Positions 22,213-25,786 of a stretch of 26,951 bases of DNA are shown in pieces. Position 1 is the first letter of the stretch. Every line of letters begins with the position of its first letter. The notes under the pieces were generated by a model. The model saw only the letters and a list, made by a program, of their open reading frames with translations. It was not told where the DNA came from and did no database searches. The translations under genes were made by a program, and so were the position numbers. Source of the stretch: a virus; IMG/VR virus record IMGVR_UViG_3300033571_023745, positions 1-26,951 of that record; one strand, written 5' to 3'.

Positions 22213-22560
22213 TTATTCGGCTTTCTTCATGGCCGGACGACCACGTTTAACCGTTCCGACTTTAGCCAACCGTTGTTGTCTTGCACTATCCGGATTCACA
22301 GGTCTACCTAATGCAACATTGCCCTGTTTGGACAACCGCTCTTGTCTTGCACTATCAGGATTAACAGGACGACCACGTTTACCAGTTGATGGTTTAGACA
22401 AACGTTCTTGTCTTACACTATTGGGATCAACGGGACGACCTCTACGAGGTACATAACCGTTTTGTTTTTTATCTTCCATTTCTTTCAAACGTAATTGACG
22501 TGGTGAATTAGGATTAACTGGACGGCCTTTTTGTTTTGGTGTTACTGAATTTGTAGACAT
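22213..22560 (-). CDS. Multi-AT-hook DNA-binding protein with tandem 22-residue repeats
   Basis: The 115-residue basic protein is almost entirely repeats of a unit of about 22 residues: RGRPVNPDSARQERLSK plus a short linker. GRP cores occur five times, starting near residues 12, 41, 63, 85 and 107; the first linker is longer and the last unit is truncated. RGRP is the AT-hook core that binds the minor groove of AT-rich DNA. The second half, NPxSxRQxRL, is a repeat-specific helix. The likely role is to coat or bend the AT-rich phage or host DNA, perhaps as a nucleoid-like or regulatory protein. Its coding DNA is more GC-rich than neighbouring genes. The leader contains ATTT and ATT microsatellite repeats. 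Two terminators follow. Confidence 0.75.
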   Translation of the reverse strand: MSTNSVTPKQKGRPVNPNSPRQLRLKEMEDKKQNGYVPRRGRPVDPNSVRQERLSKPSTGKRGRPVNPDSARQERLSKQGNVALGRPVNPDSARQQRLAKVGTVKRGRPAMKKAE

Positions 22561-24271: not shown

Positions 24272-24301
24272 AATATACAAATTATTTATTTAGAACCTAG
24301 G
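24272..24301 (-). promoter_or_regulatory. Early-type promoter unit G
   Basis: CCTAGGTTC, 11 nt, then TTTGTATATT. The TAG inside CCTAGG is the stop codon of the upstream gene (24297-24299), so coding and promoter sequence overlap. Confidence 0.72.
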
Positions 24302-24596
24302 ATAAAAAATATTCTACAACCTGATCAAAATCATAAATTTCATCCTCATATTCAACATGGAATTCAATATCATAATATTTACATTCATCAACCAAATATT
24401 GTAATGTAAGTAAATCACTGCTGACAACCTCAGCATAATATATCTGATTTACCTCATCATCAATTTCAATTGTAAAACCTAATTTACTGTATTTATTTAT
24501 TTGGTCCTGATCAATAAAGGCAAAACATTTAAATTCATTGATGTTTAATGACATTGTTGATTCATTGTGTATAGGATTTAAATTTAATTTATTCAT
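24297..24596 (-). CDS. Acidic hypothetical protein, 99 residues
   Basis: The start is the ATG at 24596 (MNKLNLNPIHNESTMSLNIN). A longer frame from a TTG at 24623 only translates promoter unit H. The protein is strongly acidic in its second half (YYDIEFHVEYEDEIYDFDQV) and looks alpha/beta. The stop codon is part of promoter unit G. Function unknown; charge mimicry of DNA is possible but not shown. Confidence 0.65.
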   Translation of the reverse strand: MNKLNLNPIHNESTMSLNINEFKCFAFIDQDQINKYSKLGFTIEIDDEVNQIYYAEVVSSDLLTLQYLVDECKYYDIEFHVEYEDEIYDFDQVVEYFLS

Positions 24597-24614: not shown

Positions 24615-24644
24615 ATTATACAAATAAATTTTTAAGAACCTAGG
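24615..24644 (-). promoter_or_regulatory. Early-type promoter unit H
   Basis: CCTAGGTTC, 11 nt, then TTTGTATAAT, abutting the stop codon at 24645. Followed by TATATCATAATAAAAA up to the ATG at 24596. Confidence 0.75.
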
Positions 24645-24833
24645 TTAATCAATCTCATCTAGCAGCCAAGGCCACATTTCAAAAACTTTTGAAGCATCTA
24701 TTTCAATCAAAGTTATTTCAACTTCATTTGAACTTTGTTTAACTTGTTTTTTGTTATAAATTATTTTTCCCCAAATTGCTTTTGGTTCTGAAGTTTTATC
24801 AGTTATTTGTTTTGGTTTAAAATTTCTTCCCAT
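24645..24833 (-). CDS. Small hypothetical protein, 62 residues
   Basis: The protein starts MGRNFKPKQITDKTSEPKAI with a basic N-terminus and ends in an acidic, Trp-rich tail (VFEMWPWLLDEID). The centre (VEITLIEIDAS) is a probable strand pair. It is the first gene read leftward from the large control region, from promoter unit I. Function unknown. Confidence 0.62.
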   Translation of the reverse strand: MGRNFKPKQITDKTSEPKAIWGKIIYNKKQVKQSSNEVEITLIEIDASKVFEMWPWLLDEID

Positions 24834-24868: not shown

Positions 24869-24898
24869 AATATACAAACCCTCAGTTGAGAACCTAGG
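24869..24898 (-). promoter_or_regulatory. Early-type promoter unit I
   Basis: CCTAGGTTC, 11 nt, then TTTGTATATT, within AACCTAGGTT. The leader to the ATG at 24833 is longer (about 30 nt) than in the other units. Confidence 0.72.
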
Positions 24899-24908
24899 TT
24901 TAAAAACA

Positions 24909-24920
24909 ACGGTTAACCGT
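24909..24920. promoter_or_regulatory. Perfect 12-bp palindrome
   Basis: ACGGTTAACCGT is a perfect palindrome 10 bp upstream of promoter unit I, a suitable place for a dimeric repressor or activator site. Confidence 0.5.
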
Positions 24921-24934
24921 ATATACTTTGTCGA

Positions 24935-24958
24935 GGGAAAGGGGTGGAGGGGTTGGGG
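24935..24958 (+). other. Canonical G-quadruplex motif
   Basis: Four G-tracts of 3, 4, 4 and 4 bases at 24935-24937, 24941-24944, 24949-24952 and 24955-24958 are separated by loops of 3, 4 and 2 nt. This fits the G3+N1-7 rule and is striking in such AT-rich DNA. Confidence 0.6.
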
Positions 24959-24988
24959 AATATACTTACCATCCCCACTCTTCCCCAA
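24953..24988. repeat. 8-bp inverted repeat with 20-nt loop
   Basis: TTGGGGAA (24953-24960) and TTCCCCAA (24981-24988) are perfect inverted copies. The left arm shares the last G-tract of the G-quadruplex motif, so the two structures would compete. No T-tract follows, so it is not a typical terminator. Confidence 0.5.
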
Positions 24989-25080
24989 AACACATACTTT
25001 CATACTTGTCACCTACTAACTTACACAATCCTACCTATCTACATATATCAATCACTATTTATATCCATTGGTCACACTTT

Positions 25081-25226
25081 GTTAATCCACATTCATTTAA
25101 TCTACACCCGTTAATCTACATTCTGTTAATCTACATTTTTATGTGGTTGATCTACAGAACGTTGATCTAAACCCCACACGGTTGATCTACACTATGTTGA
25201 TCTACACTATTGAATGTTAATCTAAA
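25081..25226 (+). repeat. Iteron-like array: nine copies of GTTRATCTACA
   Basis: Copies start at 25081 (GTTAATCCACA), 25096 (TTTAATCTACA), 25110 and 25125 (GTTAATCTACA), 25146 (GTTGATCTACA), 25161 (GTTGATCTAAA), 25181 and 25196 (GTTGATCTACA) and 25216 (GTTAATCTAAA). Start-to-start distances are 15, 14, 15, 21, 15, 20, 15 and 20. All are in the same orientation. The last copy includes the stop codon of the gene to its right. The 9-mer TRATCTACA is 7/9 to the DnaA box TTATCCACA, and the first copy is 8/9. Confidence 0.85.
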
Positions 25227-25423
25227 TACCTTACATACATAATAAAATCATTCAACACCGTTACTGCCTCCTCTAATTCCCCCACCCTACAGTATGATTC
25301 CACATCATTAAGATATAGTTCTTTCCATTCATTTAGTTTGGTTATCATTTCTGATTTACTGAATGATGGTGTGATGAAGTCTGAATTGTTATTATCTATT
25401 ATTTCTTTATTTTCCCCACCCAT
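25217..25423 (-). CDS. Small acidic hypothetical protein, 68 residues
   Basis: The protein begins MGGENKEIIDNNNSDFITPS and continues as two helices (KLNEWKELYLNDVESYCRVG, then ELEEAVTVLNDFIMYVRYL). It begins 4 nt after the stop of the 98-residue gene and shares promoter J. Its stop codon lies in the ninth iteron copy, so its 3-prime untranslated RNA would carry the repeat array. Function unknown. Confidence 0.65.
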   Translation of the reverse strand: MGGENKEIIDNNNSDFITPSFSKSEMITKLNEWKELYLNDVESYCRVGELEEAVTVLNDFIMYVRYLD

Positions 25424-25748: not shown

Positions 25749-25778
25749 ATTATACGAATAAGTTATTTGGAACCTAGG
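25749..25778 (-). promoter_or_regulatory. Early-type promoter unit J
   Basis: CCTAGGTTC, 11 nt, then TTCGTATAAT. It lies 8 nt after the stop at 25787 and is the most upstream unit seen; none is found among the SD-led genes to its right. Confidence 0.75.
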
Positions 25779-25786
25779 ATAAAAAA

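Follow-up and report, generated by a model that had tools for sequence, protein, structure and literature searches.

The locus and its genomic setting

The stretch of DNA that we have analysed, which we refer to throughout as the window, is a virus record of 26,951 bp in which essentially all of the genes lie on the minus strand (hereafter the gene strand), and it is a fragment of an Immutovirus-like phage with a T4-type virion. Indeed, its baseplate protein is 47% identical to that of the Flavobacterium phage immuto (NC_055915), and the order of its genes, which runs from a GIY-YIG-like gene through an HD hydrolase, a sigma-like protein and the baseplate to a primase, matches that of immuto. 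Two long relatives, G001 (160.8 kb) and G006 (166.1 kb), show broad collinearity with immuto and with each other, and all three have genes for DNA polymerase A, DnaB and primase in common, so that while the virion of these phages is T4-like, their replication genes are not those of T4. The part of the genome where the element described here lies is populated by small variable genes, and the distance from the element to the sigma-like gene downstream is 4.5-9 kb in the closer relatives and larger in G001 and G006. In the window, G001 and G006 the element occupies the same genomic interval, upstream of the HD-hydrolase, sigma and baseplate genes.

Several other features of this neighbourhood deserve mention in their own right. 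A promoter-like motif, CCTAGGTTC-N12-TTNGTATAWT, recurs on the minus strand ahead of small genes near the element (at 24293-24302, 24636-24645, 24890-24899 and 25770-25779), with ACCTAGGTTC giving seven matches at one mismatch against 1.0 expected, and is probably an early or middle promoter of the phage. A small protein composed of AT-hook-like repeat units (RGRPVNPDSARQ) is encoded at 22213-22560 (minus strand) in the window, at 5176-5544 in L042 and at 1389-1637 in L066, no more than 2.4 kb downstream of the element and only in the closest relatives of the window. As a binder of the array this protein was rejected, since its occurrence close to the element is limited to the window, L042, L045, L066 and L133. 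The ends of many contigs also lie no more than 1-2 kb from the element, to one side or the other (L131, L148, L149, L066, L097, G002 and G003), and although these are individual cases and not a statistical count, it is probably strain variation or repeats that break the assemblies here.

A nine-copy array of direct repeats

The array spans positions 25081..25226 and consists of nine copies of GTTRATCTACA on the plus strand, which read TGTAGATYAAC on the gene strand. On the plus strand the copies start at 25081, 25096, 25110, 25125, 25146, 25161, 25181, 25196 and 25216. Their single orientation and their start distances of 15, 14, 15, 21, 15, 20, 15 and 20 nt are exactly as a first-pass annotation had claimed. 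Five of the nine match the 11-mer exactly and the other four carry one mismatch each: copy 1 has C instead of T at position 8, copy 2 has T instead of G at position 1, and copies 6 and 9 both have A instead of C at position 10. The two sub-types that had been proposed at position 4 are real, copies 1-4 and 9 having A there and copies 5-8 having G. The last copy (25216-25226) holds the stop codon of the ORF at 25217-25423 on the minus strand, and thus the array starts at the very end of that ORF and fills the noncoding gap.

It had also been asserted that such an arrangement could not arise by chance, and our shuffles bear this out. Across the 27-kb window there are 11 matches to GTTRATCTACA with at most one mismatch (10 on the plus strand and one on the minus), nine of them in the array, whereas 200 dinucleotide shuffles of the window gave a mean total of 1.4 matches and a maximum of 6, and never more than one match per 150 nt. 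A motif-free search picks out the array as well, its best 9-mer being present in eight copies against a shuffle maximum of four. The 11 motif columns each carry 1.0-2.0 bits of information and the spacer columns 0.1-0.65 bits, so that conservation is limited to the 11-mer and does not extend to the spacers of 3-10 nt. This combination of information-rich words and unconserved spacers is as expected for binding sites and not for slipped tandem repeats.

A conserved core beside the array

The array is only half of a larger element, since directly after it on the minus strand lies a conserved core of approximately 170 bp (24917..25085), found with an nhmmer profile and, in further members, by pattern. 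Its order on the minus strand is AAGTGTGACMAA - ~60 nt - GTAKGTGACA - G-rich - TAA(CCC) - C-rich - AAARTATATAC, and the consensus of the aligned cores is AAGTGTGACMAAC - ~60 nt - GGTATGTGACAA - G-rich - TAACCC - C-rich - AAARTATATAC. In the window, box 1 (AAAGTGTGACCAA, 25068..25080), which aligns in nearly all members, is followed some 60 nt later by box 2 (GTAGGTGACA, or GTATGTGACA in most members, 25007..25016) and then by the G-rich stretch GGGGAAGAGTGGGGATGG (24969..24987), which is G-rich in the alignment too. Next come a nearly invariant TAA (TAACCC in most members) and a C-rich stretch, together at 24934..24968, and finally AAAGTATATAC (24919..24929), all on the minus strand. This last motif forms the most conserved end of the core and is a candidate melting site; AAnTATATA is nearly invariant across 21 members, and the A+T-rich AAARTATATAC is likewise nearly invariant, but short. 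Directly after the core of the window lies a 12-bp palindrome, ACGGTTAACCGT (24909..24920, with no strand assigned), which relatives do not have.

The core has neither the character of a gene nor that of a structured RNA. There is no conserved ORF in it, stop codons fall in nearly every frame and spacer lengths inside it vary. RNAalifold finds no consensus pairs in the aligned cores, the region in the window folds no better than its shuffles (MFE z -0.08) and an Rfam search gave no match above chance, so that with no covariation, no fold and no Rfam family we rejected a structured noncoding RNA. The genes on both sides of the core differ and are unrelated between members, which means that the element is not the leader of any one gene. 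Taken with the missing ORF and RNA signals and the fixed genomic interval, this points to a DNA site that serves the whole genome.

A second conserved stretch, CCACCCCGACCAA(G)TATATACAAAT, resembles the end of the core and precedes a terminator-like hairpin. It is present in L070 (at 5403), L097 (2143) and L098 (5154), in each case 1-1.6 kb downstream of the core, and in L093 (972), where no core was found.

How widespread is the element?

The first relatives were fetched via the sigma-like protein, which led to the conserved noncoding DNA after the array being seen, and more members were found with a pattern of two TGTGAC boxes approximately 60 nt apart. A profile built from 13 sequences matched outsiders, with L117 at E=2e-14 and L109, L077, L095, L097, L059, L098 and L070 at E-values from 1e-7 to 8e-4. 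An iterated nhmmer profile finds one core per contig in 22 fetched contigs at E<=3e-17 and at least 62 bits, against 9.8 bits for the best reversed-sequence decoy, the scores of the sequences in the profile being high by construction, as it was trained on part of the contigs scored. A second pattern scan brought in additional members, which the earlier profile confirms at E-values of 4e-11 to 5e-19. Overall, the core is present in about 28 IMG/VR contigs (some near-duplicates, and all metagenomic, with uncertain hosts and completeness), once per genome and on the gene strand; among the long records tested, all those with a pattern match have just one copy. The single match in the scan of genome contigs was judged to be chance, as the sequence is unrelated and the other boxes are absent, and a pattern for the C-rich/TATATAC end, which demanded one C too many, gave 0 matches.

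Among cultured phages, a blastn search with the window region and the elements of three relatives returned no homologue, and a profile search of the loci of immuto, LR756508 and Mel-JY01 found no core. In a limited literature search, we came across no published description of such an element.

Array words are private to each lineage

When six array words were counted over 22 elements, with one mismatch allowed, the resulting word-by-element table was almost diagonal; the words are private to a lineage. For example, TGTAGATYAAC is counted eight times in the window, twice each in L042 and L045 and nowhere else, GTAGGGRWAWC has 4-7 copies in the G001 group only and ATAGAGGTCACC has four copies in L066 only. 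In addition, AATCRTCAAYG occurs in 3-5 copies in L171-L173, TTRTAGAYRRCC in five copies downstream of the core in L117, and TTTAGATNYAAC in two copies each in L097 and L098. The words lie on the gene (sense) strand, the only exceptions being three isolated antisense matches, of which L098 has two and L109 has one. Motif-free tests against shuffles back the arrays of the window, L066, L171-L173, the G001 group and L117, and more weakly that of L098, and find no significant array in the core-bearing L109, L077, L174 and L177. Arrays are confined to this locus. In G001, eight of the 10 copies of its own word fall within 450 bp of the core. As an IMG/VR probe, the TGTAGATYAAC-type word gave 32 pattern matches with no real array among them.

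The expectation that close relatives would carry the array at the equivalent site was thus borne out in part. The nearest relatives, with a sigma protein 75% identical to that of the window, have only two clear copies of the same word, and of the other relatives some have full arrays of a different word and others have none.

A candidate replication origin

What, then, might such an element do? The reading that we favour, and in which we place about as much belief as doubt, is that array and core are two parts of a single element at the level of the DNA, in all likelihood the replication origin of this phage group, with fast-changing initiator sites. This reading comes from the layout, which combines oriented noncoding repeats beyond chance, a single conserved locus per genome across relatives, an A+T-rich end and a DnaB of the phage's own, much as in the origins of SPP1 and lambda. 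A putative phage-encoded initiator would bind the array repeats as iterons, and perhaps also the two TGTGAC boxes, and would melt the AAARTATATAC end, after which the DnaB-type helicase of the phage could be loaded; each of these steps we infer from the arrangement of the DNA. The first-pass annotation had offered an iteron-type origin or an operator bound by a phage protein, and these are still the best pair, strengthened by the single-copy core and by the unrelated arrays at the same site.

Other elements of the earlier proposal fared less well. The idea that the repeats are DnaA boxes is unsupported, as 17 elements hold 24 DnaA-like boxes against 20.1 +/- 4.8 in shuffles and the exact TTATNCACA box occurs once among them. 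This lack of enrichment and the complete change of words between lineages, which a conserved host protein does not explain, exclude host DnaA as the array binder. Nor is there the turning point in GC skew that had been suggested as a check, with no sign change at the element in the near-full-length G001, G006 and immuto and no clean step in fourfold-site skew. An apparent drop in skew at the element vanished once loci with antisense genes downstream were removed. The genome-wide peak of gene-strand skew in fact coincides with the element or array or adjoins it, reaching +0.28 in G001 and +0.42 in G006 (64-68 kb in both) and +0.33 in NC_055915 (67-71 kb), and the skew evidence is not supportive of an origin. 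Also weighing against this reading, the spacings (15/20 nt here and about 13 nt elsewhere) are not helically phased like those of many plasmid iterons, and cultured immuto has arrays in the same interval and no detectable core. Since some core-bearing members are without an array, it cannot be essential in all of them.

Alternative explanations

The most serious alternative, which we consider possible though unlikely, is that the element is a hub for transcriptional control, in which a phage regulator would bind the array as a large operator or enhancer, and the core would act on the late genes downstream as their promoter, terminator or antitermination site. That the element is always found on the gene strand, ahead of both the sigma factor and the structural module, fits this idea, regulator sites can likewise turn over between lineages, and heavy transcription could produce the skew peak. 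However, no conserved gene lies downstream, the RNA structure that an antitermination site needs is absent and the genes close by come with a regular promoter-like motif of their own. A scan limited to sigma-70-type promoters and intrinsic terminators found neither above chance in the element. A T4-type late or middle promoter region finds no support on similar grounds, there being no conserved neighbouring gene and only chance levels of sigma-70-like sites in that scan.

We regard as improbable a site for partition, condensation or packaging, in which a centromere-like, capsid or terminase-associated phage protein binds the cluster. A single copy with clustered, oriented repeats, independent of its neighbouring genes, would suit such a role, as would the many contigs that end within about 2 kb of it, yet the breaks fall to the left as well as to the right of the element, a pattern accounted for by local strain variation, and G001, G006 and G010 read through the element to ends that are tens of kb away, so that it is not a fixed genome end. 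Moreover, an unsystematic look saw no parA/parB-like gene beside it.

There is a slim chance that the arrays are functionless short-repeat expansions, grown neutrally beside a functional core. Some members do lack an array, the words are wholly different between lineages and two longer repeat units in the window's array, of 26 and 35 nt, take in part of the spacers; set against this are the conservation of the 11-mer amid unconserved spacers and the restriction of arrays to this one locus, always in sense orientation. Finally, a transcribed noncoding RNA, such as a sponge or a CRISPR-repeat mimic, is highly improbable, because although every array is sense-oriented with short, repeated words and TGTAGAT resembles the 3' end of a Cas12a repeat, there is no Rfam match above chance, no fold beyond shuffles and no consensus pair, the words change between lineages and, with all copies in the same orientation, the TCTAC partner for a Cas12a-type hairpin is absent, which led us to reject the mimic.

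If the array words are initiator sites, their full replacement around a fixed core would be a striking example of rapid turnover of specificity in replication. A more speculative notion, which we think rather unlikely, is that the core is conserved while the initiator word is swapped or re-evolved in each lineage as a replaceable specificity code. Each initiator would then recognise only its own genomes during co-infection, which would give a lytic phage family an identity system of an incompatibility-like or anti-parasite kind. Beyond the T4 model group, hardly any origins of large T4-like phages have been mapped, and a conserved single-copy element whose consensus can be read opens the origin of an abundant environmental phage group to direct testing.

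Comparison with known systems

Iteron plasmid origins are built from clustered, oriented repeats bound by a replicon-specific initiator (Rep), and these iterons are usually about 17-22 bp long and regularly spaced. The clustered, oriented repeats are alike in our element, although no Rep gene has been identified here. The T4 origins (oriF and oriG), on the other hand, are promoter-driven R-loops without iterons, and whereas the virion type is related, the replication genes of the present group are of the PolA/DnaB kind. An R-loop could nonetheless be favoured by the G-richness of the core on its gene strand, which would be a point of likeness to T4. Immuto has ACCCGTY-type arrays in the same genomic interval, at approximately 66.31-66.42 and 66.73-66.91 kb, with a different word that is C-rich on the gene strand and no detectable core; these two arrays flank some 300 bp within the largest noncoding gap of that genome (NC_055915 66310-66910), which is unannotated in the record.

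Parallels in layout are also found in two other phage systems. The origins of Bacillus phage SPP1 (oriL and oriR, with gp38 as initiator) combine direct repeats with an A+T-rich melting element and a DnaB-type replicative helicase (PMC6316719), and it is in these respects that our element would resemble them, with the A+T-rich end of the core as a candidate melting site. SPP1 has two origins, however, one of them inside the initiator gene, in contrast to the one element in a noncoding gap here, which has a long conserved core, lineage-specific words and no known relative of gp38. In lambda and the lambdoid phages, oriλ (with O as initiator) has 4-6 one-directional iterons beside an A+T-rich tract (PMC7466680), again a likeness to the arrangement here. 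The lambdoid iterons are part of gene O and vary little from one related phage to another, whereas the iteron-like repeats of our element fall in noncoding DNA and differ completely from lineage to lineage although the core is shared.
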